A stretch of 64,000 bases of DNA, taken from positions 3,596,001 to 3,660,000 of the forward strand of contig CM073199.1 of NCBI GenBank assembly GCA_037042915.1, read 5' to 3'. The number at the start of each line of letters is the position of its first letter. Positions within the stretch are counted from its first letter, which is position 1. The position numbers and the translations under genes are program-made. The stretch comes from Auricularia sp. M13. Lineage: Eukaryota; Basidiomycota; Agaricomycetes; Auriculariales; Auriculariaceae. The notes under the pieces are model-generated. The model had not been told where the DNA came from. It did no database searches and saw nothing but the letters and a program-made list of their open reading frames with translations. This document shows positions 1-51,535 of the stretch, piece after piece.

Positions 1-442
1 TTGCTCCGAGCGGTCTGGAACTTTGTCTCATTGCCGGTGGATGACATACGGCGCGAACTGTTACCAGTAAGAACACTACCAGCTGTCCTGAACACTACTA
101 ACTGCAGTGAAGTTCTACTTTTCACTAGGGAGTCCCTTTGTCACAATAGGTCTGCCGCGCGTCATGTGTGATGCGGCTGGTTTCGTATCGGTTGCATGTC
201 TTAGTGATTGGATTCGGATCGTGAGAGCGAGGCAGGGACGAGTGAATGTAGCGATGATGGAGTGTATGAGAGCACTGGAGAGATATATCGAGAAATGCAC
301 TACTCAGCTTCAGAAATCTCGCCGACATGGACCCGATTTGGAGTTTCACCGCGATTTTTTGGCAGTCTGGACCTATAGCGTGACCGCGTTCGTAGAGCTC
401 GTGATGGGATGTTCATGGCATCACGGGGAGAGAACGAGTTAG
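1..442 (+). CDS. Family A protein A1, 5' end outside window
   Basis: This is the 3' part of a small gene of unknown function. The first exon runs in from outside the window and ends at 66. A 46-bp intron (67-112, GTAAGA start, ACTAAC branch-like site, AG end) is followed by exon 113-442. The second exon aligns well with A2 downstream: both have an aromatic-Tyr start, PFV, LP.V, an AGFV(S/T)V block, a DW pair, and a C-terminal DLE.H.DF...W segment. The intron position and phase 0 are the same as in A2, A3 and A4. The protein looks mostly helical, with no signal peptide or membrane segment. I do not recognise the family. The paralogy is directly visible; a role with the OB-like proteins or the Helitron is inferred from clustering only. 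Confidence 0.6.
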
Positions 443-1529
443 CAGGAGTCTGTGTATCTAGAATAGCCGTTTGTAATGACATACAGTGCGTCTGTAATAT
501 GCTCGTTTTTTATGAGCCTGAGCGAGCAGGGCGTGGCGTCAAGGAGCGTCTTGGCATCGTTCTCGAGAGCCACATGGATTGTATCGACCAGACGCGTGAG
601 TAATCTAAAGTATTCATCAGTTCACGTGCGGTGCGAGAGTCGGCTCAGCGGCGTGAATTCGTACACAGCGCAAATCCCAAGTCGGCATGCAACAGCAAGC
701 GTTGGCTTCGAGCTCGTGGAATGCGCCGTCGAGGTTGAAAGCATGATGATAAAGGACGGGATTTGGCCGCAAGCTGCCCGAGGTGTCCTTCGCGCACGCC
801 CTTCGAGGCAGGCTGATGTCAGGTGAAATTGCGGTGTGTGACGGACGTCATACCCGTCCCGCACCGAGTCGCGGGCACAGTTTCCGATCGGCTGAGTGAA
901 CTATAATGATCCTAATGCTCTCGAGCGCGCAGAACACACACCAGTGCCTATAGCGTGCTCTGAATCCCTTTTTGTGCGGAATGAGCGAAAAACGCACGCT
1001 GGATTCGGACGATCTGGACAGTGCGAGAGCGTGGTGAAAGGACGTCCTTTGCGCCTGAACGCGGTACAAGGACCATATGCGAGTCCAGGAAACGCCGTCA
1101 GAAGCGGCATTTGCGATGTTGGTACGGATTGAGTGCCGGTCATGCGCGCGGCGTAAGCAGCAGAGCAACCGGGACATGCGCGAGGTGCGCAGTAGACAGA
1201 GCAAATTACGAGGTTAGCAGACGATGCATACATTTGTGGCGCCGTGACAGACCTCTACAGTTCGCGCAGTGGTCGCGTGATCGCGGCGCGTTACGAGACT
1301 GCAGCGCGAGCGTCCATAGTGACCGCAGTCATCGCGTAGTATTCGAGAGCGTGGGCTGTACGGAGTGCCGCTGCCAGTGCGCATTGCAAAGCGCGCAGTG
1401 GACCGTTCAATGGTCGAGCTTGGTACTGTACCCGACGTGTAAAGCAGCAGCAGGGCAACCGATTTTGGCCGGCCGGTCCGGTCGGGCTACTGTCAAGGCC
1501 GATTACTCAGCGAGTGCTCACATTCGGGT
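443..1529. other. No gene recognised between A1 and the Helitron
   Basis: About 1.1 kb of GC-rich DNA. Reading frames of up to 183 codons exist, but none has a recognisable motif, a paralogue in this window or convincing splice sites. It may hold the 3' flank of A1 and the 5' end of the Helitron, but I could not find a Helitron terminus. Confidence 0.4.
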
Positions 1530-1610
1530 CTGTCTCAGAACTTACGGATTCAGGCACGTTGAAATTATGTAGTGACCATCGAAAAGATTTGAGACATACC
1601 GTTCGTATAA
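1530..1610 (+). promoter_or_regulatory. Promoter motifs upstream of RepHel
   Basis: A reverse-orientation 9/10 match to TCTGAGACAT lies at 1530-1539 and a forward 9/10 match (TTTGAGACAT) at 1588-1597. A TATA-like TATAA follows at 1606-1610, about 66 bp before the ATG at 1676. The same motif precedes several family A and OB genes, which suggests a shared regulator. Confidence 0.5.
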
Positions 1611-1675
1611 TCCCCCAAGAAATTAGTACTTAAGTGCCAGACTAGAATGGGGAAGCGGGACGTATCTTCTCTCTC

Positions 1676-4600
1676 ATGGATGTCGATCAGACCTGGAAGG
1701 TGGCCAGAGTACAGAAGAATGTGCTGTGGTGGGGAGTCTGTAAAAGAACACAGGAGTCGAACCACTGTTCTCACTGTGGCATAGAATTTCTTACAGGCGA
1801 AACTGCAGGCTTCTGTTGCGGGCCTAACGGAGAAAAGTTGCACGACGTTGCACCGTTACCTCCATTGCCCGAGGAATTTTCAGAGTTCTTAGGCGACGGT
1901 CGTATATCTTCTCTATCTCGCCTACTAAATCTCGTATTTTCATTTGCGCAATTGGAGTCTTCGCAGCCTTTTCCATCTCTGCCCAACTCCTCGCACTTTG
2001 CAGTACAAGGGCGTATTTTCCACAGAGTCAGGCCCAATCATGCAAACTCTGCAGTTCGTTGGCTCCTATACGACGGATTCATGAGGGGATCTGCCCCTCA
2101 CTCCGACGCGCATTGGTTCAGGAAACTACCTCCGTCGTGGATTGAGGCTTTCGGTACCGCGCTCTTGCGAGTGAATCCTTATGTTCACTACATCAATGTC
2201 TTTCGCCAGTCGCCGGAAAGTGACTTACCCAACGTTCAATTACTGATTCGAGACGCGGGCGCCAACGAAATAGCCGGAATCATGTGCTTTGATAACACAG
2301 TAGCATCTGATGCCAAGGTTCGGGATTGCCATCGCTTGCACGAAGTTATACTTACTTCTTCACAGCTGAGATCCATAGTCATCTCCAAGAAACGGAGGCC
2401 TGCGACGGAGTTTACAGAATCGGTAGAGGAAACCTCCGGAAACGTTCATTACATCTCCGCCGTTAACCGATTTTGGGAACCTCTCGTCTATCCGCTGTTC
2501 TTTCCGCATGGCACGCTTGGGTGGGGCAGGCAGGCATCAGGACCGGTTCGACAAGGCGTTGTTGATGACGATACCGTGACAAGCCAGCTCTGGCACTGTC
2601 GAGCGCGTCTGCTTCGCGAACAAAGATTCTCGCTTTTTGGTCGACTCACCAACGAGTATGTCGTGGACATGTTCACTCGGAACATAGAATCGAGGCTTGC
2701 GTATATTCGCTCTGGTCAACTTGCTGCTCGTCGCGAGGATGCCGCGTTGATGGGTCTCGAGGTATCCACAGAGTCCGAAAACGTGTTCTTGCCGACTTCC
2801 TTCCTTGGCTCGAATGCATGGTGCTCAGAGCAGATCGCGGACGCACTGACTGTTGCTGCAAATTGCGGGGTTCCGACTTTCTTCATTACCATGACTTGCA
2901 ATCCGGACTGGCCTGAGATTCGCGAGAAGCTGCTTCCCGGTCAGGAATGGCAGGATGCTCCACTCGTCGTGGCGCGCGTCTTCAAGCAGAAGCTGAATGT
3001 TTTGTTCAAGACACTCAAAACTATGTTCCCCAACGCCGGCAAAGTGGTACGTCCAGTCTGTTTTAGTTTCGATGGGGCAAGGAGCTGAACAACCCTATGA
3101 CGCAGTTATACCGCCTCTTTGCAGTTGAATTTCAGAAGCGGGGTCTCCCCCATTGCCATGTATTGATCAAGTACGAGAAGGATTGCTTACGCGCGTGCGA
3201 CATTGACCGCGTCGTGTCTGCGGAGATGCCGACCAGTTTTGCGGATGCTGCCCTCATCCACCGCTTCATGCTCCATAACCACCCGGCTCCGAGAAACGTT
3301 GCGGACTCGCAGGGCTCTAGCTCCCTGCCGGAGTACTGCCAGCGTCGTGTCCATCGGTTCTCAAACAACGATGAATCCCTTCGCGAAACGTGCCGGTTTG
3401 GGTATCCTAAACCGCTTCAGCCAACGACTACATTCTCATTCGATGGCAGGCCTCACTACCGTCGACGTTCTCCGGCGGACTCTATGGTGGTACCGTACTG
3501 TATGCCACTTATTCGCGCACTGGAGTGTCATATCAATTTTGAGGTGGCAAATTCTTCGCACATTTTTCAATATCTCTTCAAGTACATCAGAAAAGGCGTG
3601 TATCTCCAGTCTGGTGTCCGTGTCTTTTGCTAACTGCTATGTAGGTGTCGATCGGGCCTTTGTGCGGCTCCGGCCAGATGGTTCTGAGATTATAGACGAG
3701 GTCGAAAACTATTGGCGCGCACGGTATCTTTCTGCTGGGGAAGCCGCGTGGCGTATTCTCGGGTTTCACGTGTCTGGGAAGATGCCTGGAGTCACAGGGC
3801 TGCCTGTTCATCTGGCGACTTCGCGCAAACACCGACAATACCGACGGGTTAACGGTCCCACGAGCACGTTCTCCCTTCTCGATAGGTACTTTCACCGACC
3901 AGCCGGTTGCTTTACTGCTGGTGATGAGACCGTGCTGTTTGCGGACCTGACCTATGCAGAATTCTATAGTAAATTTCGGCATATACCTTGGGATCGGCGT
4001 CTCCTAGGCAGGTCTGACGTTTACGAGGAGTCTGGCATCGTGGACGGCGACCTCAAGCGTCTCGTTCTGCGCCGCGCAGACACACATCGACATTTCGTGC
4101 GCATTGCATCCGTTAAACCATCTCAGGGCGAGCTGTTTTACCTGCGCGCGATCCTTCTAAATCGTCCTGTTACTTCTTTCACCGACGCGCGAACAATAGG
4201 AAGCATTTGTTACGACACTTACCAGGAGGCTGCACAGGCAATGGGTCTGTTTGCGGATAAGAACGAGGCTCACTGTGCATTACATGAAGCCGTTGACTCG
4301 CTGAGAACACCGCGCCAGATACGCCTTCTTTTCGTCCATCTCCTCGTCCACGATCCCGGCGAGGTAGACTTTCCTCTGAATCTCTGGGAGTTGTTTCGAG
4401 ACGAGCTCAGCCGGGATTTCTACTTTGAGAACGGCGGTCTGCGATTGGCAGCCTACTCGCACGCTCTGCAGGAGCTATCAATGATGTTCGACGAGTTTGG
4501 CAGGACATTGCAGGACTTCAATCTACCACTTCCAGATTCTTTCATCGGCGAGGCTATGTACGAACGAGATCGATGGCTCCCTCACTTGGAGAAGTTCAAG

Positions 4601-6040
4601 AATAACCTTGCCGCAGTTCTTCCTCGTCTTACGCACGAGCAACTGGCTATATTCAATGAGGTTGCAGAGTCTATCGTGAATGACAAACCCTTACTTTTGT
4701 TTATCGACGGCAAGGCGGGGCGTGGCAAGACCTTCCTGATCAACGCTATCTGTGATCTCGTACGCTCTCGGAATGAGATTGTGCTTCCTACAGCAACATC
4801 CGCGTTTGCAGCGCTATTGTATGAGGGCGGAAGAACCACGCATTCCTGTTTCAAGGTGCGCATTTCCTTTTATTTCTCAGCAGTTTGTGATGTTATGCCT
4901 TAGATCCCCGTTGACGAGCATAACGAGCTCTTGCGATCACCAATCGAGCCGGGAGACTCGCGTGCGCAGCTTCTGCGGGAGTTCCGTGTGTTGATCTGGG
5001 ACGAAGCTCCCATGGCAAACAGAGCTGCATTGAGCTGTGTGGAGGAGACCTGTCGACGCGTAACAGGCGATGACCGTCCCTTTGGCGGCAAGATCGTCAT
5101 TCTAGCGGGCGATTTCAGGCAGACATGCCCAGTCGTTCGTCGAGGAACCCGCGCGCAAGTTGTAGACGCTTCTATTCGGTGTTCGGCCCTTTGGGAACTG
5201 TTTACAGTGCGACGGTTGACTATTCCCATTCGGAACGCTGAAGATGCTGAGTATGCAGCTTGGGTCGATACTATAGGAGATGGAGCAGGGCCCCAAATTC
5301 CTTTGCAGCTACTTCGTCATGTTCAGACCGAAAGTGAGATGGTTGATTTCGTATACCCACAGGACGTCATCGATGATCCAAAAGCGTGTCTGAAACGCTC
5401 TATCCTTTGCCCAACAAACAAGCAGATAGACCGGTATAATGCGTCCATCCTAAAGCGAGTACGAGGAGTTGCACGTACCTATCTCTCAGCAGATCGCATC
5501 AAAGAAGAAGATCAGGCGGGGATGCCAGAGCGGGGCACCGCAAGCTTGGATTACGCTTCGAAGGCTCACTTGCCCGGCTTGCCAGACCACAGTGTTACCA
5601 TCAAGACAAACGCAGTTTTTAGGCTTCTGCGCAATTTCTCAATTGCCAGAGGCTTGGTTAAAAACGTCCGGGTGGTTGTTATGGATGTAGGAGTTCGTCT
5701 CATCACCGTCCGTCTTCTACGCGATACAGTCGGAGGTGTCATGATCGACGATGAAGATATTTTAATTCCTCGAATTACTTTCGAAACGTATCTACCGGAG
5801 ACTCGACGAACGCTGCAGCGCCGACAGTTCCCGTTGGCTCCGGCGTATGCGACAACATTTAATAGCTGCCAAGGATTGACCCTTGATCTGGTCGCCATGG
5901 ACCTTTGTCGTCCTGTCTTCTCCCACGGACAGCTATACACCGCTGTGTCTCGAGTTCGGCGACGAGAGCACGGCATCGTGAGATTACCTGCGGGTCAACT
6001 ATGTGCAGAGAATGTAACCTATGTCGAGATTTTACTGTAG
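1676..6040 (+). CDS. Helitron RepHel protein (HUH replicase and PIF1 helicase)
   Basis: Helitron transposase, nicking and unwinding DNA for rolling-circle transposition. Exons 1676-3046, 3106-3595, 3645-4855 and 4904-6040 join to 4,209 nt in one frame (1,402 aa), a usual size for RepHel. The N-terminus has a CSHC...CC zinc-binding-like region followed by PLPPLPEEF. The Rep domain has EFQKRGLPHCH, the two-His HUH motif, then QYLFKYIRKG with the catalytic tyrosines. The PIF1-like helicase has Walker A GKAGRGKT, Walker B LIWDEAPM, GDFRQT, and a C-terminal FNSCQGLTLD / YTAVSRV block. Introns 1 and 3 are GT-AG; the frame of intron 2 (3596-3644) fits only a GC-AG intron. No inactivating change was seen, so the gene may be functional. 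Confidence 0.93.
1676..6040 (+). mobile_element. Autonomous Helitron, coding part; ends undefined
   Basis: The element is identified by its RepHel gene. I found no convincing 5' TC terminus, nor a 3' hairpin followed by CTRR. The family A and OB genes downstream could lie inside or outside the element. A1 and A2, the closest pair in family A, flank the RepHel gene. Confidence 0.75.
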
Positions 6041-6099
6041 AACACCTGATAAGCATGAATATATTAGCTTAAACTCATTATGTCCCCAGCAGTCTGCCA

Positions 6100-6188
6100 C
6101 TTCCGCGTGCGGAAGCTTCTCGCAAGTTGTCATTTCCGGCCGGACTGCCGCTGCACTGCCACACAGTCCGCATTCCGAATGTGGCAGT
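6100..6188. repeat. Two hairpins downstream of RepHel
   Basis: Positions 6100-6115 form a perfect 7-bp stem with a 2-base loop (CTTCCGC-GT-GCGGAAG). Positions 6155-6163 and 6180-6188 form a 9-bp stem (ACTGCCACA / TGTGGCAGT) around a 16-base loop. They could act in transcription end or as Helitron 3' structures, but neither is followed at the usual short distance by CTRR. Confidence 0.5.
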
Positions 6189-6358
6189 TCCGCACTTGAT
6201 GTGTCGCTCTGTTCAGACTGTCGCCCGTGCGCCGATGCGGCGTGCGTGTCTGACGTTATCCAGCAAGCTCTTTGGCTATGGATGCGAGACAACTGAGTCG
6301 GCACTAGAAACGCCAGTACAGCGACGGTTCGTGTTCGGACGGTTCCGCATCAGTACAA

Positions 6359-6410
6359 TCTGAGACATCGCCATTCCATGTCATTCCAGCGCAACCCTAA
6401 CAGGTATAAA
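6359..6410 (+). promoter_or_regulatory. A2 promoter: TCTGAGACAT plus TATA
   Basis: An exact TCTGAGACAT at 6359-6368 is followed by TATAAA at 6405-6410. The ATG at 6450, in a CACCATGCGG context, is about 40 bp further on. An ATG at 6378 lies upstream of the TATA box and is not used in this model. Confidence 0.6.
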
Positions 6411-6449
6411 AGGCTTGCGTGTGACGCGGTCTTACGCGCGTTCGCCACC

Positions 6450-6907
6450 ATGCGGAAATATTCACACTCTCCAGATTATATGCCATCCGCTATCCATGAG
6501 TCTTTGCGAGAGTTTTCGGATCTGTGCTGCTATGAAGTTCCCCGAAACCGGCTTGCCGTGCGCAGTCCTCCGATATGAGATTGCCATTCCTGTTGACACC
6601 CTTTTAGTGGTATATGACATTGAAGAACCCGTTCGTTGGAAGTTGGTTGCCTCCCGTGCTTTGCAACGAAGCCGGCTTTGTTACGGTTCACAGCCCGCGC
6701 GATTGGGTCAAGGAGGCAAAGTTGCAGACGTCCGATCTTCGCGCGGACCTTCTCCATTGTCGGACTATCGTGAATCAGGTCGCGCAAGGAAATTATTGGG
6801 AGCTGAGGGAGAGCGAGAAACCAGATTTGGAAGAACATTATGATTTCTTCCATACATGGGAGTTTAGCTGTTTAGCTCTGGTAGATATCCTACTACAGTT
6901 GGCTTAG
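6450..6907 (+). CDS. Family A protein A2
   Basis: Small protein of 135 aa, function unknown. Exon 1 is 6450-6557, the phase-0 intron is 6558-6607 (GTGCGC...TTTTAG), and exon 2 is 6608-6907; together 408 nt. Exon 2 opens with an aromatic-Tyr pair and carries PFV, LPPVL, AGFVTV, RDW and a C-terminal DLEEHYDF..W block, aligning with A1 almost without gaps. A3 and A4 are more distant but keep the intron and the P.VL and W positions. It is predicted mainly helical, with no signal peptide or membrane helix. It sits between RepHel and OB1 on the same strand behind a shared promoter motif. Start chosen for its position after TATA and good ATG context. Confidence 0.7.
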
Positions 6908-7216
6908 TTGTAACGTCACGAAATGTTCATTTACGTTCCTCAGACCTTAATGACACTATGTTGTGAGCCTTGGACATCTGCGCTGAGCTCATGGGGTAGA
7001 GGTGTGAAGTTGGGCACCATAAGTTCAGAGCGCGGTGCGGACGTAGACGCAGGCCCAATAGTTGATGCTAATCGCCGGAGAGATACCCAGTTGTGAATAC
7101 CAGAACGCGAGAGCGCCGATTAAGCCGCGTGGATGTACGGGCATCCTGCCTGCGCAATCCGAGTGTAGTTGCGCCATGGCCGTCAGATCAGGAACCCGGC
7201 AGGTTTGCGAAAAGGT

Positions 7217-7398
7217 TCTGAGACATGAAGCCCCCATCTGGGCCATTTCGCACTTTTGGGACCCAGAGAGTGCAATCGCAGGTGTTCTTTGCGGCGAGCG
7301 ACCCGCCGGTGTCAAATAGAGTTGACTCTGGAGAATGACTGTCTCAGACCTTCCAACGTCCGCACCTAGAATATTTGAATGATCGCACGCTTTAAAAG
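7217..7398 (+). promoter_or_regulatory. OB1 promoter: two TCTGAGACA motifs plus TATA-like box
   Basis: An exact TCTGAGACAT at 7217-7226 and an inverted 9/10 copy at 7339-7348 precede a TTTAAAAG box at 7391-7398. The OB1 ATG at 7455 lies 57 bp after that box. The inverted copy is about 43 bp from the box, much like the A2 promoter. Confidence 0.55.
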
Positions 7399-7454
7399 CG
7401 CGCAAATGGCGAGGGGACTGTGCTCGAACTCGTTCAGTGAAGCCCACGCACTCA

Positions 7455-8925
7455 ATGCCGTCGTTTTTCATCACCTCCATCGTCGTTGCTCTTTATGAGC
7501 CGGTGCGCATCCCCGCCGACGCCGCCGGTCTCAAAGGTTACAATGTTTATCACGCGACAATGTCTCTGCATAGTACGTGCATGTGCTAGAATACTTCAGC
7601 TCATGCTGACGGCTCGTCCAGATTCAGAAATCCCAGTGTGCATTGCTCACCGCACGCTCAAGAGCCGTTGCCCTCCAGGCACAGTGGCACACGTCCGTGG
7701 AAGCGCAGTCATAGTCAACAGGAGCCTACTAGTCACCGCGACCACGCTTATCCCAGCTGCTATCGAGTCAGTGCCAGGTCCTTTTCCACCAAGGCATCAC
7801 TGTCTCCCGCGCGTAGTCCTCGACGGATTCATCTCCTCAGATGTCCGTTTACTTGAGACGAATGTGAACTGCAAGGTCTTCGATTTAACCATCATACGTC
7901 GCGACGTATGGCCCGGGAGACCCCTTACCATTACGTGCGTTCTCGAGAGTGTATGACTCGCGATGACGCGGTTGCTGACTGGGATATAGGTGCTGGGTGC
8001 ACCGCGACCGTCAGCGCTTTTATCTGCTGGAGCCTTTGGCATACGGCACGCCTGTTGTTGTCACAGGCGTTATTAGCGGTTGGACCTACAACGATAAGCT
8101 CGTGATCGACGTGCATACCGTGGGATACAACAACAGCGGCAGCTCTCCGGCTGTGCGCGCAACTGAGGTCGCCAATCCGTTCTGTCGCGCAGTATTCAAG
8201 GACGGTTTCGCGTTATTCCCCGTGCTCACGTACGACCAATCCAAGATACGCACCGTAATCTCCCAGGATGCACTTCCTACGATGGAGAGCGAATGCTCGG
8301 ATGCACACGAGCCTCATTGCAGCCCGACTGGCGTGAATAGTGTCCTGGGCGACGGGTCAGTCAATTTTCCTTAGGCATGATATGTGATCTAACATTGTCA
8401 CTGCGCAGATCAACATTTATTCCTGGTACTTCTGCAGAGAAACAGGATCCCATGGATTGCAGCAACGGCGAGAATGAAGATCCTGCGGAGGAATCCAGCC
8501 TCGGAGATGTCAAGCGAGGCGTAGTTCAGGTCGCCGCCGTGCGCGTTGACGCTGCTGTCGATACTGGAGATGGAGAGCAGGGCACGCCACTGCATATTAC
8601 CCCCGACCAGCCGGTGAACGTCGTACAATGGCCCAGTCTTGCCTCGGACGCCACCGCCAGCACCGGAGATTACGAGCCTCAGGGGCCGGAGCAGCCAGTT
8701 GGTGGAGTTCGACTGCCTTCCGTCCAGGAAGTTCGAGCAGCCACGGTCAAGAAACTGCGGTCACGAGCTCTGCGCTCGCGGAAGTCTACGCGCACCTCAT
8801 CTCCTGATGTTCCGCTTCGCGATCAGGTTAAGCTCAAGATTACTGCCAAGCAGCTCGTGTACGTATCTTTTGAAGCACGTCACGTGGCATACTCATGTTG
8901 TCGCAGTACTATAGCTTCTGCATGA
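7455..8925 (+). CDS. OB-like protein OB1
   Basis: Function unknown; predicted to hold two OB-like barrels and so perhaps bind single-stranded nucleic acid. Exons 7455-7572, 7622-7934, 7990-8355, 8409-8858 and 8907-8925 join to 1,266 nt (421 aa). The first barrel-like block has PGTVAHVRG and a strand-rich run; the second has YGTPVVVTGVISG followed by DKLVIDVHTV, with the Gly-hydrophobic spacing of OB folds. The C-terminal 170 residues are acidic, then basic and Ser/Arg-rich. Intron 1 (phase 1) and intron 2 (phase 2, GTGCGT start, next full codon TGC for Cys) occur at the matching places in OB3, and the phase-2 junction also in OB2. The paralogy is firm; the OB call rests on pattern reading. 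Confidence 0.7.
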
Positions 8926-9470
8926 AGTAGAACAATAATAAGCATGCGACGAGAAATGGACAGACCTATAGTGTATTTCCGCAGTTTTGAAGATGCCGTT
9001 TCAATTGAATTTTTTTGTGGTTGATAAATATTGTTCATCCTGGGTTTAACCGAATCGAATCGACGTCCGTTGAGAACAGCCTGCTCGTCAGAAAGTGTGA
9101 ATGTGAAAAACTAGGCAAAACCGGCACTGTCGTGACGCTTTTCAGGACGTAGTTCTGTGTCTGTAAAAGAAAGTTACACTAACGGGCAAGTCAGCACAAC
9201 CGTCTGTCGTATGCGGTCGACGAGCGGGTGAAGTTCAGGTTCGGAGTTTCTATTGCGCTTGCCCTTCTATCACCCCCGACTGTACCGCGTTCACCTAACC
9301 TATGCGCACATACTTTCACGGTGCCTGCGAGGAGCAACGCTTTTTCCAAGCGTATATCCATATGCGCGTCGATTTAAGTCTGCGTCTGCCGAACTGGAGT
9401 TGACATGTCCTGCAGACTCTGGCTTTCGGTCGTCCTATAAATCCGCACGCTCTACAGGGTGCGCCGCCTC
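8926..9470. promoter_or_regulatory. OB1-OB2 intergenic region with TATA box
   Basis: No gene seen. A TATAA at 9436-9440 lies 31 bp before the chosen OB2 ATG. I found no good TCTGAGACAT copy here, so OB2 is the exception in the cluster. Confidence 0.45.
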
Positions 9471-12025
9471 ATGCTTTCCCCCATGCCCCCCAGTCAGCTA
9501 ATGCGAGCCGTTCGCTGCAAACTGAGCATCGAGCTTCACGACCAGTCCCTTCTTCGGTCGGAGGTGTGCGACGACAAGGTGGTCAAGACGTACATCCTCT
9601 GCTCCTTGGTCAAAGGTTTGCAGTCTCATTTTGCGCACCCGCGTCCCCCCCTAAAGTATTTGCAGACATCAATTCCTCGATTACCGTACTCTATCGCACT
9701 GAGGACCAGCCTTATCCAGATGGTACGGCCGTAACGCTCATGGCTACTCTCTTGATCAGGCGCGGCACCCTCAAAGCCGATGCCTTCGAGGTGGAAATTA
9801 TGACTGAAGAAACTACACCACCTCTTCCCGCTCCTTACGTTCGGCCCCCTCGTCTTTTCTTCGACGCCATCATTCTGCGTGCGCTTTCGTCGGGCCCTCG
9901 CTCTGGTGTCTTCGAAATGCAAGTCTCGGTGGATATTACTAACGAGGTGAGTCGCGCGCGGCAAATCGGCTGGGTATGATGCGAGCTCATTGCCATAGGA
10001 TGGTATGCCGACGCAGCATGAAGTCTGGTGCGTGATCCACTGTTTTACCTTGGCGAATGCTTGCTGATTGTAACGCAGTTGCTCCTTTGCTCGCTCGAAG
10101 AAGCTGTTCAAGACACTCCCTCCCCTGTATACTACGCAAGGTGTCCGGCTGGGCGGAGACATCGGTGGCTGGATCAACTCGGAGACAGTCTGGATTGATG
10201 TTTGCGCGCTGGAGGTTCTGGGCGCTCCGATTCCCGACGTTGGTCGCAGGTTGGAGACGTCAGCGCGAGGGAAGCGTACAGAGGGTCCTATCAAAGGCAT
10301 TGGTCGCGACTCGATGCCGTGAGTTTCGCTGCTGACGCACGGTGTTCGCTGGTATCCTTATTCTTTCCCCTAGACGTCGTGGTCGAACTCCAAGCCCTGT
10401 CAAAGGCTTTGTGTTGCCGTGAGTCCGGTTTGCGTGCCGGTACATTTTGTGAGCTAAGCAGACTCTCAGTCGACGAAGTCCGAGTCCTTCCAAGGAGCTT
10501 GCGTCGTCGTTCGATGCGTTTCATCTGCGGTCAGTCGATTCTATCGCTCGCACGCAACTCATCTGATTTCCTTCACAAGATCGCGAGCATCCAGTCCAGT
10601 AAAGGACTTCTCTGACAGTTTTACGACCGAAGATGCCATGTGCGTATATCGAGGGGCGTTGCACCTTTTCTCACGCGTTGCAAGTGTTTCCGAGGTGCCT
10701 TCGACGTCGGCGAAGGCGATCTTCCTCAATACGCCTGTCGATGTCATGGCAAATGGTATCCTCCAGTATGTCATTTTCTGCTATGTATACGCCGGTAACT
10801 AATACTATCGCTTCAGAACATTGGTACCCGTCCCGGACCCTGTCAAGTCTGTTGATCGTATCGAGTGAGTTCTTAACTCGCGCTGACATCATGAATGACC
10901 GTGGCTGACAATCACATAGGCCACCCGAAACCACGGTCGTCGCTTCTGTAGAAGATGCCGATATCAAGGCAGTGACGCCGTCGCAAGACGCGCATCTTCC
11001 AACGTATGAGCTGGCTCTCTCACATACGAACGCTCACGCTCACTTTCTGATAGCCCTGACGGTCTGAGCCTTTTAACGGCTAGCGTGGTAACTGAGCAGG
11101 CCTGCGTCGATGCTGGCAACCGAGGCAGTTGCATTGAAGTCGAAGGACAGGGTGGTGACGCTGGCGGGGATGTTATGCCTCACGGCCTACAAACCGCGAG
11201 CTCGCGCAAGTGCGTGCTAACCGCGATTGTAAGCTGTGCTCACGCTGTCTTAGTGTCCTAGACGAGCGAGTCCGCACTCCGGCGGCATCCCGGACGCTTG
11301 CACAGTTCACTACAGAGTAAGCAGATGCACTTTTGCTCCGCACCTAAACTAAGCGACGTTGAAGCAATCTCGCTAACATTGGATTTACGCACGGCGCGTC
11401 CGGGAACATGAACAGCTCGATTACCAATTACATGCAGTATGCCATTGTTCTGATGATTTCGTCTGTGTTGACGTCGCTTTCCAGGCATCTTGAGCAGTCC
11501 ATCTCCGCCTTCACCGGCTCTCATGAGCGCGAGAGCACCATCCTTCCTCTACAGTGAGTTTATATTTCGGGTTGTATGCTGCTTTGCGCTCACGAGTTTC
11601 AGGACTTCTGGATTTTCTCTCGACGTCTCGTCCGCGGATTCCCAAGACAAGACTCCGATCGAGAATGCCGCACTGTGGCCGAACGGCTGGGAAGAGTTTA
11701 ACCAGCAGTAAGTCTTTCATTGTCAACACACATCATGAACGAGAGCTGGAAACACGCTTTTTTTAGACAGATAGAACAGTTTATCGCGTATACATCTGCT
11801 TGCGGCGAGCAACTTGCCGCGGATCCAAGGTATGAGACGATTGGGTGTATTTCATACAGTTCACCAACGCACTCCAGCTTCGTACCTCCTACTCAAGCTG
11901 AGCTCGCGAGCGCGGTTGACGGATGGGAGTCCACAATGGAACATCCTCTTCCCTCGTGGTCCTTTGATCCCCTCCCTGCGCCTGTCGCGGCTGCTGCCCC
12001 CACTCCCTCGTCGTCCTTTGATTAG
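9471..12025 (+). CDS. OB-like protein OB2 with long multi-exon tail
   Basis: Third member of the OB family, most diverged. Exon 1 starts at the ATG at 9471 after a TATA box. Introns at 9616-9665 (phase 1), 9957-9998 and 10028-10078 (phase 2, GTGCGT, then a Cys codon) are readable; the first and third match OB1 and OB3. The first barrel-like block has DGTAVTLMATLL, the second QGVRLGGDIGGW and VWIDVCALEVLG. The rest is a chain of short exons with repeated RR.SPSP.K-like units and acidic stretches, then a WPNGWEEF segment and an FD ending at 12025. Tail exon borders are tentative. Same strand as its neighbours, about 400 bp before A3. An alternative is that the tail is a separate gene. Confidence 0.55.
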
Positions 12026-12289
12026 ATGCTGCTGCCTCTTTCTGTGCCATAGCTTGAGTCGTATTTCCCCGCCGATAGCGCGATGACGCGGTTGTTTATC
12101 CGACTGTCTCACGAAATTCATTTTGTTTTGCTAATCTGCTGATGTGCGAAAGCATCGATTCTGCGAGCGACTGAAACTCGTCCCTCCCTGCGCGGATCGC
12201 TCACCCGTTGAAGGGTATCATCGGCGCAGTTCTTCAGGGGATATGGTTTATGGGGACCTTCCACTGGCGACAGTACCAGGCCAGTTGGG

Positions 12290-12370
12290 TCTGAGACATG
12301 CTCTTGAGTTGAGCGCAGGTTTCGGCGAAGTAATTGCCAGACCTTCTCTATAAACGCGACGAGTATAAAA
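12290..12370 (+). promoter_or_regulatory. A3 promoter: TCTGAGACAT plus two TATA boxes
   Basis: An exact TCTGAGACAT at 12290-12299 is followed by TATAAA at 12349-12354 and TATAAAA at 12364-12370. The ATG is at 12424. The 50-bp gap from motif to TATA is close to the A2 promoter. Confidence 0.6.
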
Positions 12371-12423
12371 TGAGAACATTGTTGCCAGGGTGCCCGCATT
12401 CTGTTGCTCGTGTCACTGTCGCG

Positions 12424-12999
12424 ATGAGGACAAACTCACCCATATCCGATCGGAAGCCCAATGCCGATGTCAAACCGTCTGTCAAGCAGGACGACAGCCC
12501 TAATGCTGTCCCCTGGGACGGAGCTAAGCAGGGTGCCGGTGTGACTATCGAAGACAGCCGATCGGGGTCGAATCAACCCGGACGATTTGACGGGGTTCCC
12601 ATTCTCAAGATATCCGAGAGTGATATTGACGTGAGTTAGTCACGTTAACAGCGTTTATGGGATGAACTGATCCTTTCTTAGGCCTATATTACTCAGCGTA
12701 TGCCTAGGGTTCTCTCAGATCTGCCTCGCATCAGCTGTTCCAGAATGGAGAGCGCGTCATATGTGCGGCGATGGATCCGCCGCGCCGAACGCATGACCCA
12801 TTGCGTTGAAGAGCTCTCGCATAGGTTAACTCTCCAGCAGGCGATTGTCTCAGATATAGCTTGCCTCATGATGACAGAGATTGCCTATGAGTCCGGCGAT
12901 GATGAGAAGCGGCAGCTCGTGCGAGACATGGTGGACAACTGGCTTTGGAAGTTTTTGGATTTCCATAACAGGGCTCTAGATATCTGTAGGGAAATGTAA
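12424..12999 (+). CDS. Family A protein A3
   Basis: Small protein of 174 aa, function unknown. Exon 1 is 12424-12630, the phase-0 intron is 12631-12681 (GTGAGT...TTAG), exon 2 is 12682-12999. The N-terminus is polar and low in complexity; it ends in FDGVPI, shared with A4. Exon 2 has YITQRMPRVLS, a helical core with a WI pair, and a C-terminal D.VDNWLWKFLDF block that matches A4 and, more weakly, A1 and A2. No signal peptide or membrane segment. It lies between OB2 and A4 on the same strand. Confidence 0.7.
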
Positions 13000-13205
13000 T
13001 ATTCATACTCAGTAGGATCAATTGCGCTGGTGACGGCCGGCGTGAGCACTCCGTCAGTTCGTAGGCGCGTTTGCAGCCGTCTCGATGATTCTGATAATGA
13101 GGGTACATGACAATCTCTAAAGGAATTTCTTTATCCGGGAATCGTTCTGTCTCGGAACTGTTAGCAGCGAACCGGGTCGATGCGAGTTGTCCCAAACCTG
13201 GAAGT

Positions 13206-13326
13206 TCTGAGACATTCTTCCGGTTTGCTTGGGCTATCAACTCTCAGTACTGGAGGACTTGGGACCAGTATACCAGAGGAAGGAAGGCTTACATATGTGG
13301 TTTGCTTCCGTTCACGCTATTTAAAT
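13206..13326 (+). promoter_or_regulatory. A4 promoter: TCTGAGACAT plus AT-rich box
   Basis: An exact TCTGAGACAT at 13206-13215 lies about 140 bp before the A4 ATG. A TATTTAAA box begins near 13318. The motif-to-box spacing is longer than at A2 and A3. Confidence 0.5.
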
Positions 13327-13421
13327 CGTTGCCGCTCTGACGCTCCCCCGACAATGTCTGCAATTGACCATGTCCAACTCCCGGTCATCTCTTCCCTAAG
13401 AGGCCGGCCCACAGATCAACG

Positions 13422-13637
13422 TGTTAGCATTCTAGGTTTCGGGGTTTAAGTGTTTCCGCGCCGCGCCCGTATTCACCGGAGGTTTGTTTACTTGTGTTTC
13501 TCATCTGGTTGTCCGGTCTCGTTCTGTAGTCGCTACCTCGTGTACCTACGACATACGGACAACCAGTATTACACATTGGTTTGCTCTTCGTCTTTACCTG
13601 CATCGGCGCCGGGCTTTCGGGAGACGTGATTCTAACA
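13422..13637. repeat. 5' long terminal repeat
   Basis: 216 bp, TGTTAG...CTAACA, no differences seen from the copy at 14802-15017. It is preceded by the CAACG target duplication. Confidence 0.9.
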
Positions 13638-13692
13638 CAACCAGATCACGGGCGCATGTGGTCCCCGTTCAACAACACCACGGCGACGGCGA

Positions 13693-13940
13693 CTTGCGCT
13701 GGCTGGTGCCCGCGGCCGTCACTCGGGCGTCTTGCGCTGGCTGGTGCCCGCGGCCCGATCCTAGGTGTCTTGCGCTGGCTGGTGCCCGCGACCTAGGCTC
13801 CTGCTGTTGCCGGTCTGGTGACCCGACAGCACCCGCTTGCCTGAGGACGGCTTGCGGCGATTTGGGGCGACCTGCGCCGGCTGTGGCCCGCGGCCCCACC
13901 CCTAGGCGACCTGCGCTGGCTGGTGCCCGCGGCCTGGGCG
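13693..13940. repeat. 38-bp GC-rich tandem repeat inside the LTR element
   Basis: Units starting CTTGCGCTGGCTGGTGCCCG begin at 13693, 13731 and 13769 (38-bp period). Two more related units start near 13871 and 13910 after a spacer. This makes long artificial reading frames on both strands. Confidence 0.8.
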
Positions 13941-14281
13941 TATATCCTTGCTCCTTGGTGCTCTGCTCTTTCGACAATACATTTTCACCGGCATCGGCCG
14001 ACACGGACGGCGACGATAACGGTCCTGCCTGACCTTCGACATCCTCGTTACGGCGCACCCGCAGTAATCTTGACGTCCTTCTCCTATTTGCGGCACCCCA
14101 TACTTCCTCTTTCAGCTGTCCACTTGCCACCGGCTCCCTGCACCCGCATGTGCGGCTTGCCGACCCGTTGCTCATGCCCAACCTCGTTGCTGCTCTGCAT
14201 GGTCTGTACCCCGGCATATAGGCTCGCCTCATTTACCTTCTTGCCGTGTACTTGGCGCTTCGATGTAACTTGGTCAGCACA

Positions 14282-14361
14282 CTCGTCTATCGCAGTCCGA
14301 AGAGAACGCCACCGCCGCACGCTCGTCTATCGCAGTCCGGAGAGAACGCCGCTGCCGCACG
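14282..14361. repeat. 40-bp tandem duplication inside the LTR element
   Basis: Two units starting CTCGTCTATCGCAGTCCG begin at 14282 and 14322 and differ at a few positions. Confidence 0.75.
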
Positions 14362-14801
14362 CTACTCGGACCGCTATCGACCGAAGACACAGCAGCCTTT
14401 GAGCTCAGGGTGCTGCCTATCCGTGTAGGCAGACTGGAGGAGCCGTTGCCCATTTCCCCGTGTTGACCAGCTCTCTCGGACGTGTTGGCCGGTAGCATCG
14501 CGGTCGCAGGATGAACGTGGCGCTCGTCGACAGCGCCTACCCACTGCCCTTATAGGGGGCTGTTTGGATACACATGGGCGTAGACCATGTGACGTCTCTG
14601 CTTGCGGCCCTGCCATCCTGGATTATGCCTGCACGTTGCTATGCCGCGGATATTTGCTACCTTCGCTTCGATACGATGCGCTCTCAGCACCCTATTACCG
14701 CAACTTGCATGGTTACAGGATTATGGGGAAGCACCTGGGCCTGCACACTTTGTGCAAAACTGGGGGAGCATTCCCAGTACGCTCTGCGGAAACAGGGGGA
14801 G

Positions 14802-15017
14802 TGTTAGCATTCTAGGTTTCGGGGTTTAAGTGTTTCCGCGCCGCGCCCGTATTCACCGGAGGTTTGTTTACTTGTGTTTCTCATCTGGTTGTCCGGTCTC
14901 GTTCTGTAGTCGCTACCTCGTGTACCTACGACATACGGACAACCAGTATTACACATTGGTTTGCTCTTCGTCTTTACCTGCATCGGCGCCGGGCTTTCGG
15001 GAGACGTGATTCTAACA
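14802..15017. repeat. 3' long terminal repeat
   Basis: 216 bp, matches the 5' copy throughout. It follows a purine-rich tract and is followed by the CAACG target duplication. Confidence 0.9.
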
Positions 15018-15548
15018 CAACGCAAGGGTAGAAGTCGTCTGACTCGCTCCCTCCGGAATTTTGACGGCGTTCCAATAACTGAAGTCCTAAACGAGCATCT
15101 TGGAGTGAGTGACAAGTAGTCAGTTATGCTGTATTAATCGTAGTATGTATTCTAGGAATACATCGTCGCACGTCTCCCTCCAGTGCTCTCTCAATTCCCG
15201 GCGCTCGTACCTTCTCGTCTCAGGATCCCCGAGTACATAGAGCAATGGATGCTTGAAGTGCAGAAACGCAAGCTTCCTAAGGACGATGTTGAAGAACAGC
15301 TCGTCCTGCAGCGCAGTGTTGTTCACGCCGTATTCCGTCTTCTTTCGCTTGAGATCGCGCAATCGCCTTGCAGTGATGAACGAAAAATTTTTCTCAACGA
15401 CATTGTAATCAACTGCTCGTGGAGATATCTTGATTTTTACTCCGATGTTATCCAGCTGTTGAGAGCAGTTACGACACTTCCTAACGGCGAGCGTTCGAGC
15501 TGTCGAAGGCACGTGACTCCGACAGTTGCCGATGCCAAGGATCTCTAG

Positions 15549-16000
15549 ATGACAAGCACTTGACGCGAAGCGGTCGAGCCTGGCTCGAGCTGTCAAAGTT
15601 CCTCTCCGACGGTTCCCGATGGTGAGCTTACTTGCATACCTCCAGCATGATTTCTGTTTTTGTATCCTCGCGGTCTGGCTCATGGCGGCTGGCCGTGGGC
15701 GTCTACCGCTCGAAACGCATGACAGGCGTGTGTGTACTGCTGAGGGGCGTACGTCGTGGTCACTGACGGCTCGCTCACATGGTTGTCGAGTGCACGGCCG
15801 CGAGATCCGACCGATCTCGATGCCAAGCAATTTGACAGCTGTCAGATTGAATCACTCTGTCTGCAAAGGTACTGAGACAGCACAGAGCTTTTGCGTCAGT
15901 GCTTCAGCTTAGAGTGAAGCGCCAGAGACGCAACACTAACCGAAGTGCTCTTCGCCGTACAAATGCAACCCTGTCGACGTCTTGAGGCGTCAACGTCGTC
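15549..16000 (+). promoter_or_regulatory. A4-OB3 intergenic region with ACTGAGACAG motif
   Basis: No gene seen. A weaker (8/10) form of the cluster motif, ACTGAGACAG, lies at 15871-15880, about 120 bp before the OB3 ATG. No clear TATA box was found. Confidence 0.4.
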
Positions 16001-17581
16001 ATGGGCCAGTTCTACTTTGACGCTATCCTCGAGTTGCGCTCTCCGTCCATCGTCAACCCCCGGCGCCGTGGGGACGTCCGGCTCCATATGTACGTTGGGA
16101 CCGTCGAACTCCACGGTGAGTAAGGTCTCGCCGTCGTCGCAGTCTTGCGTGGATCATTCATCACGTCGGCAGACTCGAAGTTCGAAGTCACCGTCCTCGT
16201 CCCTGACAAGCATAACCTACCGCCTTTGATATCTGTCGGAACGACCGTGCATGTTCTTGGGGAGGCGGACCTTGAAGGCGTGTGCTTCTTTGTGCACGCG
16301 CCCATCGTCTTCACCGCCAAGCCATTGCCGGATTTGGCCGGACGTCGGCCCGCTCTGATCTTCAAAGGCTCGGTGGTACACTCAACGTCCAAGGACTTCT
16401 TTGCCACCGTCAGCAGCAACGACGCGGAGCATGAATGGGCGGGACCGGCGACAGTCAAGTGCGTCGTATATATTTGTGATGAGCTCCGCTAACGCTACAT
16501 GTAGGTGCACACTCGACCGCGAGGTCTTCCACATCAACACTATTCCGTCTCTCGATGTCGGATCCATCGTCAACGTATCCGGGCTTATGACGGGCATCCA
16601 CCACGGCGTTATTTCGCTCAAGGTCCACGACGTTCGCGACCGCGATACACCCCCATGCCACGCTCATACTTTCGCGCGCATCACGTCCCTGTCTGCCGAA
16701 GTGCTAGAATCGTACTGCTCTTGGTACGTTCTTCGACGTGCTACGCTACGCTAGCAGCCCGCTCATGTCTTTTCCAGGTTTAAGGCTCACTACGACCCGG
16801 CCAAGCAAGATGACATGGATGTCGAGTACGTGCCGTCTTCAGTTCTATTCGTACATTCTGATTGTCTCCCAGACCTACGTCACGGTCAATCCCCAATCCG
16901 TTCGAGCTACCTCCCCCTCGCGGTCCCGTCTTGCCAGACGCTTCGCTGTCCGTGGAAGGATTCACGCCGAGCCTTCAATCCGACGCGTCTGAGTCCGGCG
17001 AGCACTCTTCTATGTCTGGCGAGGTCCGCGACGCGCACGCTGTACTTCGCGCAGCGTACGTCGAACGTCCCTTCAATCCTTCTTTCGACATGCCGTCGTT
17101 CGATGGCCCCGGGCCTCCGGGTGGGAGTTGGCCAGCGTACTGGGCTTCCCTAGAGAAAGAACGTCACAATTCGCCCAGTGATCCGCACTTCTCCGAACAA
17201 CGCTTCTCGCCTACGTCTCCGGGCTCACATCCCGTCTCTCCGCCTTATAATCCCATCTCGCCTCGTGTTCCCTCCGCTCGCGATCTTTTGCCTGAACCCC
17301 TATCTCTCGACCATGTTCTCTCGCCCTCTCCGTCGTATAGTGCTGCGGAGCACGGTGATACCGTTATCCTTTCGTCGCAGACCCGAGACCATCTTCGCTC
17401 GCCCACTCCGTCGTATGGTGCTGTGGAGCACGATGATACCGTGCTTTCGTCGCAGACCCAAGACCGTGCGCGTTCCCCCACTCCGTCGCCGGAAGACGAC
17501 AAGGTGGTGCAGCCTCGCGGCTCAGTCTGGCTGCGTTACAGCTTGGGCTCCAGTGTGCGTGCGAGCTCCGCTAAATTTTGA
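16001..17581 (+). CDS. OB-like protein OB3 with Ser/Pro-rich tail
   Basis: OB family member, function unknown. Exons 16001-16115, 16173-16458, 16505-16723, 16778-16825 and 16873-17581 join to 1,377 nt (458 aa). The N-terminus (MGQFYFDAILELR) aligns with OB1. The first barrel-like block has VGTTVHVLGEADL and FFVHAPIVF; the second DVGSIVNVSGLMTG and GVISLKVHDV. Intron 1 (phase 1) and intron 2 (phase 2, GTGCGT, then Cys) match OB1. The last 230 residues are Ser/Pro-rich and hold two imperfect repeats around SPSPSYSAAEHGDTV and SPTPSYGAVEHDDTV, typical of disordered tails. An SSB- or telomere-protein-like role is possible but unproven. Confidence 0.72.
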
Positions 17582-18199
17582 CATTTCTTGATGTACTTGG
17601 TCCTGTCTTTTTCCTTAAGAACTTGAACATTATGCCCCATTCTTCGCGTCTCCTTATGTATGCTCCAAATAGTCCAGGCTCTCAGTGAATAATGCTCATT
17701 CGTAGTTATTGTACGTTCGATAACGACGTATGAATGAGAGAATTACAACATCTAGCTTCCATGTTTCAAAACCGTAGCGAAGCGAAGGTTCGTCTTGTTT
17801 GAAATATCATGATCTGAAGAGTATGTAAGAGGAAGAAAGGAGCATCACAAGTCAATCTCCAAACAGCATGCTGTTCACGTGACGTCATGACGCGTTGTGA
17901 ACTCCGACTGTTGGCGCAGGGGGACCGAGGTGCTGTCAGGTCCTCGTTATATCCCTGTCTGTATTATAGAATCTGGTTCTAGCTTATAAACGTTCGGGCT
18001 GCCCGTTTTCTGGTCAACTTTGGTCATTGGGCGGCCACTCAGCGTAATAGAACTTCCGCGACGCCGGTTTGACCGGGGAATCCATTGCTACTGGCGGGGA
18101 GGCAAACGTGAGCGCGTGAGTCTAGGCTGTCTAGCTGTCTAGCAAGTACGTCGGGTGCAAAGGATGAGCGCCGAGAGCCACAGAAACAATGTATGACGT
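17582..18199. other. Intergenic, no gene seen
   Basis: About 620 bp between the convergent ends of OB3 and an F-box gene. Base composition becomes more AT-rich than in the cluster. I see no motif or repeat in it. Confidence 0.4.
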
Positions 18200-19633
18200 C
18201 TAGATACTTCGCTGCACGACTGCGCATCCGTATTCATGCTCGACGGCCTTGATATCTCCCGTGAGCCGCACTCCGGCGAGCTCGACGAGTTTGAGAGGAG
18301 ATGGGCGAGCACGAATGACCCTCGCCAGCAGGACCGAAAGTTCGTCAGCGGCAATGGTGACGCCGGCGGGCGAGTCCTCGCTTGGCGTGCAGATGATAGT
18401 GCGCACGGCAGGAAATTGCAGCGCGTAGGGTTCGCGGAACCGATTGTATCCGAGGACTGCGATTAACGGATGATTGTGCAACGACTTCCGCCCATCGAAG
18501 TAAAGTTCTACGATTTCGCACGCGGGGAGCTCGTCGCCAATTTCGGGCACAATGCCGGAGTTGCGCGAGAGCAGACGAAACCGAGTTACGCGAGCGAGCA
18601 GATCGGGGTTGAAGAGCTCTTCCTGGACGCGGCTCCATGCTTCGTCCTCCTCGCCCTGAGCGTACATCTGGTCGATGTGAAAGGTTCGAGTGCGTGGCTG
18701 TGCCGGATCAGGTGAGGAGAGCTCGACACTCACGTCGCTTGTCCCGAAATCCCGAACAGTGAGCGTTAGTTGCCCTGCGATTGCGCTGACCAATGTGTGT
18801 ATCCATCCATCATCTGGGCCGTAGGCGGGGCATGTAAAATGCGTGACGGCTTGGAGATCCGACTGGCGAAACGCTGAGAAGAATGGGCCATAGTTCCCAT
18901 AGCGAGCATGAACGTCGAGCGCCACAAGTGGACCACGCGCGAAGGAAAGGGGCGCTTCATCCTCAATAAATGAGAAGGCGGAGACGCGGAGTTGCCGCAG
19001 AGCGGGAAAGTGGGCAAGAAGGTCTACGAGCGCAAAATCTTGCTGGGACATGAACTGGAGCGATTCGACGTTTTGGAATGCGGCGACGGTGCGTGCGCGG
19101 CCAGGCAGCGCAATTTCTCCGAGAAACGCACTTTGAAGTCTCGGCGCATGGCCGCCAAGGAAATCCTCGGGTAGTATCAATCCGGGGAAATCGTTCGGGA
19201 GACTGACAAGAAACAGGTCCTGCAGTACCGGGGCGGGTTCCATGAGCGCACCGAACACTATTGAAGAGAGATTGTCTGTGCACTCGATGCGCAGGCGCAA
19301 TGTGCGATACAAGTTGCGCTGGATCGCAGGCAGTACAACCGAACGGAACTGCCATGTATTATCCTGGTCTGGAAGACCATAGTCAAGGCAAGCAACGTCC
19401 AGGTTGACACCGGAGGTGTGCGCATAGAGCCTGGACCTGCAAAGGTCGAGCGCTGCTGGCGTCAAGGCAAGCGGCAGCTTGATATCGCGCCAGAAAGTGG
19501 GGTGCGCATGAGCGGCGCGGCGCCAGACCCTGCAAACATGCGAAAGCCAGACGAGTTCTGATAAAGTAACGTGGTCCAGAATCTTCGAGATGAGCTCGAA
19601 GGGAAGACGTGCGTCTGTCGCGGTGGCCGACAT
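18200..19633 (-). CDS. F-box protein (copy 1, intact)
   Basis: Substrate-recognition subunit of an SCF ubiquitin ligase, by family. It is a single exon of 477 aa if started at the ATG at 19633; an in-frame ATG 24 bp upstream is possible. The F-box lies at about residues 9-50: LPFELISKILDHV, then HVCRVWRRAAHAHP and TFWRDIKL. The rest has scattered leucine-rich stretches (LAHFPALRQLRVSAF, FPAVRTIIC) without a clear LRR register, the usual form of basidiomycete F-box proteins. Copy 2 about 0.4 kb upstream is a tandem duplicate, very close in the last 100 residues. Target unknown. Confidence 0.85.
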   Translation of the reverse strand: MSATATDARLPFELISKILDHVTLSELVWLSHVCRVWRRAAHAHPTFWRDIKLPLALTPAALDLCRSRLYAHTSGVNLDVACLDYGLPDQDNTWQFRSVVLPAIQRNLYRTLRLRIECTDNLSSIVFGALMEPAPVLQDLFLVSLPNDFPGLILPEDFLGGHAPRLQSAFLGEIALPGRARTVAAFQNVESLQFMSQQDFALVDLLAHFPALRQLRVSAFSFIEDEAPLSFARGPLVALDVHARYGNYGPFFSAFRQSDLQAVTHFTCPAYGPDDGWIHTLVSAIAGQLTLTVRDFGTSDVSVELSSPDPAQPRTRTFHIDQMYAQGEEDEAWSRVQEELFNPDLLARVTRFRLLSRNSGIVPEIGDELPACEIVELYFDGRKSLHNHPLIAVLGYNRFREPYALQFPAVRTIICTPSEDSPAGVTIAADELSVLLARVIRARPSPLKLVELAGVRLTGDIKAVEHEYGCAVVQRSI

Positions 19634-19999
19634 TGTGGGACGAGGAAAAGCGCACATGGCTGGGCTTGAAATTTGACTTGTTCACGTTGCCGGTTAAACA
19701 AGGGGGGCATTCTGACTGGTACAGTCATACCCTGCTGCTTAATAGTCTCCTTAAAGCAGACGGTACTTACAGCGCGTCCTTGAACCGGCGAGCGGACGGA
19801 CGCGCTGCTTAACACAGGTTTGTAAGTAGAAAACACTGTAATGGTGGAGGTAAAAGCATGTGGGCAGCCACATTAATTGAGTTGAGGGCAGGCCAGTCTC
19901 AAGCGAGCCACAAGAAAGTTTTGCTTCCACTCTAGCTATCTAGTATTGGGATCGAATACATGAGACGACCACCGTGCAGAGAGGGACAATCCGACACAT
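19634..19999. other. Spacer between F-box copies 1 and 2
   Basis: No gene seen. It should hold the promoter of copy 1 and the 3' flank of copy 2, both on the minus strand. Confidence 0.35.
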
Positions 20000-51504: not shown

Positions 51505-51535
51505 CGAATAAGCAAGGAACACTGTGAATTTAGAG

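Follow-up and report, generated by a model that had tools for sequence, protein, structure and literature searches.

A RepHel Helitron gene of Auricularia sp. M13 in a cluster with two families of divergent accessory genes and a shared promoter element

The 64-kb stretch of Auricularia sp. M13 DNA analyzed here (assembly GCA_037042915.1, contig CM073199.1, positions 3,596,001 to 3,660,000; hereafter the window) starts inside a cluster of eight genes, which consists of the Helitron transposase gene RepHel, four genes of a family termed A, and three genes of a family termed OB. This cluster is real, and its RepHel gene is intact. An 8-mer, CTGAGACA, stands shortly upstream of RepHel and of five of the six accessory genes that start in the window, which adds support to the unit of RepHel, A, and OB genes put forward in an earlier note on this DNA; the ends of a Helitron, on the other hand, were not found. 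We tentatively favor the reading that a large Helitron, either whole or with its main body preserved, encodes RepHel together with accessory proteins, whereby the OB proteins would coat single-stranded DNA and the A proteins would act as their partners. That A and OB are genes of the element and are expressed together with RepHel is the likely part of this reading. The coating of the single strand by OB and the partnership of the helical A proteins are less certain.

RepHel and the order of the genes

Rep (HUH) and Pif1-type helicase domains within one RepHel frame characterize an autonomous Helitron, and both are present here: Pfam finds Helitron_like_N in exon 1 (2.4e-28) and PIF1 in exon 4 (4.2e-27). 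The translation contains PHCH and YLFKYIRKG, which we take to be the HxH motif and the tyrosine motif of RepHel, respectively. The exon sum of 4,209 nt given in the earlier note was reproduced exactly. The second intron (3596–3644) was read as GC–AG, as the GT–AG alternative in the sequence would be 31 nt long; the GC–AG reading joins KG to VDRA, as in other Helitron Rep proteins.

All eight genes lie on the plus strand and follow each other as A1, RepHel, A2, OB1, OB2, A3, A4, and OB3, with strand and order recovered for each of them as first described. Within the window they span 17.6 kb, with an insertion of a long terminal repeat (LTR) element counted in. No extra copy of A, OB, or RepHel was found by tblastn in the window outside positions 1–17,600 (best E value 0.11), and no relatives turned up in viral_contigs with A3 exon 2 or with two parts of RepHel, namely exon 4 and the end of exon 1, as queries (OB proteins were not sought there). 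Recurring A–OB neighbors (A2–OB1, OB2–A3, and A4–OB3) had also been claimed. By our own count, three genes of each family can be arranged in 20 orders, eight of which (40%) yield three mixed neighbor pairs; this is no more than chance, and the adjacency was hence dropped as a sign of functional pairing.

Two families of divergent paralogs

The paralogy and the conserved introns of both families, as proposed in the earlier note, hold. For the A family, blastp within the eight proteins of the window links A1 with A2 (2e-19), A3 with A4 (4e-17), and A2 with A4 (0.10), and the profile of A1/A2 aligns co-linearly with that of A3/A4 over 98 columns—a result that one of 200 column-shuffled controls matched. 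All four A genes bear a phase 0 intron at the identical aligned place. For A1, this position depends on the choice of an AAG acceptor, which was picked because it restores the frame; the reading is then open across the exon junction at the family intron position. The lengths of A2 (408 nt) and A3 (525 nt) agree exactly with those reported before. Exon 1 of A4 is open on either side of the LTR element, and its frame continues across the site once the element is taken out. This suggests a recent insertion into a gene that had been intact before.

Exon 2 of A3, modeled from an alignment with its three paralogs, shows three long helices (residues 25–39, 42–69, and 74–104) with a predicted local distance difference test (pLDDT) score of 87 and a predicted template modeling (pTM) score of 0.75; the helices presumably form a bundle. 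Foldseek returned no match for this model in PDB or BFVD at 0.001 (best 0.35 and 0.70, respectively), a PDB sequence search with the A profile gave nothing useful, and in Pfam the A proteins hit families at chance-like values (DUF5753 at 0.041, RteC at 0.058, and Rab3-GTPase_cat at 0.068). By this model, the A proteins are helical proteins without a known match.

In the OB family, the corresponding blastp values are 1.3e-6 for OB1–OB2, 0.007 for OB1–OB3, and 0.22 for OB2–OB3. Aligned by hhalign to a joint OB1/OB3 profile, OB2 scores 43.6 over 169 columns, and none of 200 shuffled OB2 sequences did equally well. Two introns agree in all three genes: intron 1, in phase 1, interrupts a D codon at one aligned position, and intron 2, in phase 2, lies in the codon preceding an aligned C. 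OB2 has one additional intron. The length of 1,377 nt given before for OB3 was reproduced exactly and with a clean frame, whereas the 1,266 nt given for OB1 became 1,230 nt including the stop codon in the present model. The copies of both families are very divergent, at 17–30% identity. The coding tail of OB3 contains a tandem repeat at 17309–17488 with a period of 78 bp (2.4 copies, 83% match), which at the protein level is a proline/serine-rich unit of about 25 residues (25–26 aa).

A promoter element common to both families and RepHel

Six of the seven genes that start in the window—RepHel, A2, OB1, A3, A4, and OB3—carry CTGAGACA within 150 bp upstream. The 8-mer was first spotted by eye, but each control set was scored by whichever 8-mer did best in it, with random segments drawn from 18.2–64 kb of the window. 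At 150 bp, six of seven was reached by none of 500 dinucleotide-shuffled sets and none of 500 random-segment sets, and at 250 bp by none of 2,000 sets of either type. Other word lengths gave weaker tests: 7-mers reached six of seven in 5 of 2,000 random-segment sets with a limit of 250 bp and, with 300 bp, in 4 of 500, 9-mers with one mismatch in 2 of 60 shuffles, and 10-mers in 0 of 60.

The element is concentrated at the cluster. CTGAGACA occurs nine times in 64 kb, whereby eight copies fall in the first 18 kb (seven upstream of genes and one within A3 exon 2) and the ninth is at 25428. A 14-mer weight matrix built from eight sites scores these same sites at 18.2–23.4 bits, with the runner-up in the window at 12.9 bits, which has to be read in the light of its training on these sites. 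When spacers were compared with each other by blastn, the best match was the motif itself (E value 0.09), with little else in common; hence, CTGAGACA does not look like the trace of a recent duplication. RepHel and OB1 bear two motif copies each, in opposite orientations, with one of the RepHel copies off by one base. Inverted motif pairs occur at 1531–1596 (RepHel) and 13148–13214 (A4) with a distance of 57–58 bp and one degenerate member in each, and at 7217–7348 before OB1 with a distance of 123 bp.

This distribution bears on the possibility that A and OB form a host gene cluster, which a RepHel Helitron merely entered. We consider this highly unlikely: the promoter element is common to RepHel, A, and OB and has one copy in the remaining 46 kb, and the eight genes share a single orientation. 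What speaks for a host cluster is that the limits of the element are open, as Helitron ends were not found, and that an F-box gene (18203–19633) follows directly. More generally, where the ends of a Helitron cannot be located, a shared promoter element offers a simple test of which neighbors belong to it.

Evidence for and against an OB fold

Inspected by eye, each OB protein has two segments with the strand pattern of an OB fold, and introns would fall between predicted strands 2 and 3 of both. At an E value of 1, the only Pfam match of OB3 is tRNA_anti-codon (0.13), and the only one of OB1 (first 254 aa) is SSB (0.12). Both families are members of the OB-fold clan. Scanned alone, OB1 domain 2 matches SSB at 0.012 with 16.1 bits—compared with a curated cut-off of 26—and EndoS_helical at 0.23 alongside.

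Profiles for hhalign were built from bacterial genomes for SSB (50 rows) and tRNA_anti-codon (23 rows), with Biotin_lipoyl (31 rows) and PDZ_2 (60 rows) as controls, and each score was set against 100 column-shuffled profiles. Domain 1 reaches 18.5 over 32 columns against SSB, which no shuffle equaled. Domain 2 reaches 17.8 over 75 columns against SSB (one shuffle equally good) and 15.2 against tRNA_anti-codon (two shuffles), while Biotin_lipoyl, PDZ_2, and the A family were equaled by 17, 46, and 81 shuffles. For domain 1, the values against Biotin_lipoyl and A are 59 and 99. Since SSB and tRNA_anti-codon had been picked from the Pfam matches, the domain 2 test depends on these, whereas the domain 1 test is independent.

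Several results weigh against this assignment. No OB match lies above a curated Pfam cut-off, the other five single OB domains have no Pfam match, and the match of OB3 is lost when its domain 2 is scanned alone. As the A proteins match unrelated families at 0.041–0.068, single matches near 0.1 weigh little. The hhalign probabilities are 4–5%, about 5% at most, and the SSB match of domain 1 is confined to the 32 columns mentioned; domain 1 shows no resemblance to the second OB family, tRNA_anti-codon (55 shuffles as good), and its PDZ_2 control is near the edge with five. A PDB sequence search with the OB profile and three single OB domains found no OB protein; for OB1 domain 2, the top entry, at 0.07, was an immunoglobulin-type protein. 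NCBIfam and PHROGs contained no match up to an E value of 1. An AlphaFold2 model of the first two exons of OB3, in which intron 1 was translated along with them, has a pLDDT of 35 and is uninformative.

Taken together, an OB fold in the OB proteins appears moderately probable, and an arrangement of two such folds in tandem is fairly likely. The assignment made in the earlier note is thus supported yet unproven: both domains score best against the SSB profile, but the Pfam matches stay below the cut-offs. For OB2, the core had no Pfam match at an E value of 1, and Pfam families of RPA were absent at this threshold from OB1 (254 aa), the OB2 core, and OB3.

One element and its possible mechanism

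The common orientation, the absence of a further family copy in the window, and the shared promoter element argue for one unit. Several points stand against it. Autonomous Helitrons have the termini 5' TC and 3' CTRR, the latter closely preceded by a hairpin, and insert between A and T without duplicating their target. A strict scan for 3' ends (hairpin plus CTRR, positions 1–20,000) found one candidate per strand, located inside A3 or OB2. Ten base shuffles of the plus strand gave 0–4 candidates, so the real count is no higher, and the attempt to delimit the element by its 3' end was rejected. No Helitron ends were found that would enclose all genes in one element. A1 precedes RepHel, CTGAGACA is missing upstream of OB2, and the 9-mer TCTGAGACA, with at most one mismatch, shows no enrichment across the entire window (20 occurrences against 16.5 expected).

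The position of A1 would also fit a serial insertion, in which related Helitrons, each with A and OB genes, landed side by side and left a graveyard with one RepHel. The strong divergence of the copies is in line with this, and Helitrons of Pleurotus ostreatus often land where other Helitrons sit (PMC4289320). A second RepHel or a remnant of one is, however, absent from the window by the tblastn search given above, the strict 3'-end scan shows no internal Helitron ends, and the modeled accessory genes are open, with the exception of the insertion in A4. We regard serial insertion as improbable.

In the favored reading of a single large Helitron, RepHel, A, and OB genes would be carried by one element and expressed together. 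During rolling-circle transposition, RepHel displaces or transfers a single strand, and the OB proteins would serve to coat it—the likeliest role for them, yet an unproven one—while the small helical A proteins may act as their partners, which is a guess from genomic company. The A and OB copies would go back to gene duplication, for which growth of the element by read-through at the 3' end is a possible route, followed by divergence. A more far-reaching version appears rather doubtful: a fungal Helitron lineage with its own single-strand-binding complex independent of RPA, made of two-OB proteins and small helical partners, acquired as an independent SSB-like function, amplified within one element into specialized copies, and switched on together with RepHel via one promoter element. 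If the OB proteins are single-strand-binding helpers, this would provide a testable function for the genes without known domains beside fungal RepHel genes.

The LTR element, neighboring genes, and coordinates

The LTR element is an insertion in exon 1 of A4 and does not belong to the Helitron unit. Its interior contains tandem repeats of 38 bp and 40 bp, and the one 185-aa plus-strand frame that was scanned has no Pfam match at 0.01. Downstream of the cluster, F-box genes are found at 18203–19633 (minus) and 26817–28082 (plus), and a frame at 20000–20797 (minus) closely resembles the former. Further on, a 409-aa frame at 50320–51546 (minus) bears an RNase H domain (Pfam, 3.9e-20), and a candidate second RNase H-like gene was noted by eye at about 21980–23300. 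The gene density, the short introns, and the F-box genes are in keeping with an Agaricomycete. All features of the cluster are listed in Table 1.

Table 1. Genes, promoter sites, and the LTR insertion of the cluster (positions in the window)
Feature	Position	Strand	Details
A1, 3' part	1–442	+	exon 1 end 1–66, intron 67–112, exon 2 113–442; 5' part beyond window start
RepHel promoter sites	1530–1597		TCTGAGACA at 1531 (-), TTTGAGACA at 1588 (+)
RepHel	1676–6040	+	exons 1676–3046, 3106–3595, 3645–4855, 4904–6040; 1,402 aa; frame without stop
A2 promoter site	6355–6368	+	with CTGAGACA
A2	6450–6907	+	exons 6450–6557, 6608–6907; 135 aa; clean frame of 408 nt
OB1 promoter site, distal	7213–7226	+	with CTGAGACA
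OB1 promoter site, proximal	7339–7352	-	with CTGAGACA, inverted
OB1	7455–8925	+	exons 7455–7536, 7622–7934, 7990–8355, 8409–8858, 8907–8925; 409 aa; two predicted OB domains and long tail
OB2 core	9483–10320	+	exons 9483–9615, 9666–9946, 9999–10027, 10079–10320; 228 aa, open frame; model stops before further 3' exons
A3 promoter site	12286–12299	+	with CTGAGACA
A3	12424–12999	+	exons 12424–12630, 12682–12999; 174 aa; clean frame of 525 nt
A4 promoter site	13202–13215	+	with CTGAGACA
A4	13354–15548	+	exon 1 13354–15104, split by LTR element; exon 2 15156–15548
LTR element	13422–15017	.	1,596 bp; identical 216-bp LTRs, TGTTAG...CTAACA; 5-bp target duplication CAACG
OB3 promoter site	15867–15880	+	with CTGAGACA
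OB3	16001–17581	+	exons 16001–16115, 16173–16458, 16505–16723, 16778–16825, 16873–17581; 458 aa; two predicted OB domains, repeat tail

Comparison with known Helitrons

The closest precedent is HELPO1 of Pleurotus ostreatus, in which, as described by Castanera et al., RepHel is followed downstream by between one and four cap genes (PMC4289320). None of capA, capA2, capB, and capC contains a known domain; the first three share a similarity of about 45% with each other, and several cap genes are transcribed (PMC4289320). In several other Basidiomycetes, capB adjoins RepHel in the same orientation, and the position of capA and capB is said to fit growth of the element by read-through at its 3' end (PMC4289320). 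HELPO1 and the present cluster have in common that they are fungal, with an intron-bearing RepHel of about 1,400 aa, divergent genes without known domains downstream of it, and an LTR element in one copy. They differ in the number of accessory genes, with up to four cap genes (and at least one) in HELPO1 and seven genes from two families here. No RPA domain was found in the HELPO1 RepHel frame, and neither an OB assignment nor a shared promoter element is reported in the accessible text (PMC4289320). A and OB genes agree in position and orientation with the published description of the cap genes (PMC4289320).

This precedent also supports a different view of the accessory genes, namely that A and OB are passenger or cap genes as in HELPO1, kept for a purpose other than single-stranded DNA, for example to counter silencing by the host. 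Fungal transposons including Helitrons carry TET/JBP genes, which are thought to counter methylation (PMC12730594), and the strong divergence and high copy number of A and OB would fit an arms race. Yet the OB signal points, weakly, to nucleic acid binding, and Pfam shows no TET/JBP match in the A and OB proteins at an E value of 1. We consider such passenger genes possible, although not probable. The TET/JBP-bearing elements resemble the present one in having an accessory gene on a fungal Helitron or other DNA transposon, and differ from it in the encoded protein (no TET/JBP match at an E value of 1 in ten sequences scanned).

Among other fungal elements, FoHeli of Fusarium oxysporum has a subgroup with an extra gene without a known domain; unlike here, this gene lies upstream and in opposite orientation, and RPA-like genes were not found by the authors (PMC5148889). 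Fungal Helitrons reach lengths of up to 14 kb according to a review on giant transposons (PMC6431247). Among the literature matches listed, which consist largely of titles and the starts of abstracts from mostly non-subscription literature, none described a fungal Helitron that carries OB or SSB-like genes.

Plant Helitrons with RPA-like genes (PHRPA) likewise have, next to RepHel, a gene whose product probably binds single strands (PMC4683698). They differ from the present cluster, which has no Pfam RPA match at an E value of 1, SSB below its cut-off as nearest profile, and three divergent copies accompanied by a second, helical family. The same paper, on Mothra, counts three or more cases in which Helitrons of plants and animals independently took up a single-strand-binding protein (PMC4683698). 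If the helper role proposed for OB is true, a fungal case would be added to this repeated uptake by rolling-circle transposons, so far described for plants and animals. With divergent paralogous genes downstream of RepHel already published for P. ostreatus Helitrons (PMC4289320), the word "undescribed" in the earlier note was too strong for the kind of cluster, which is already known; new are its content, its number of accessory genes, and their joint promoter element.

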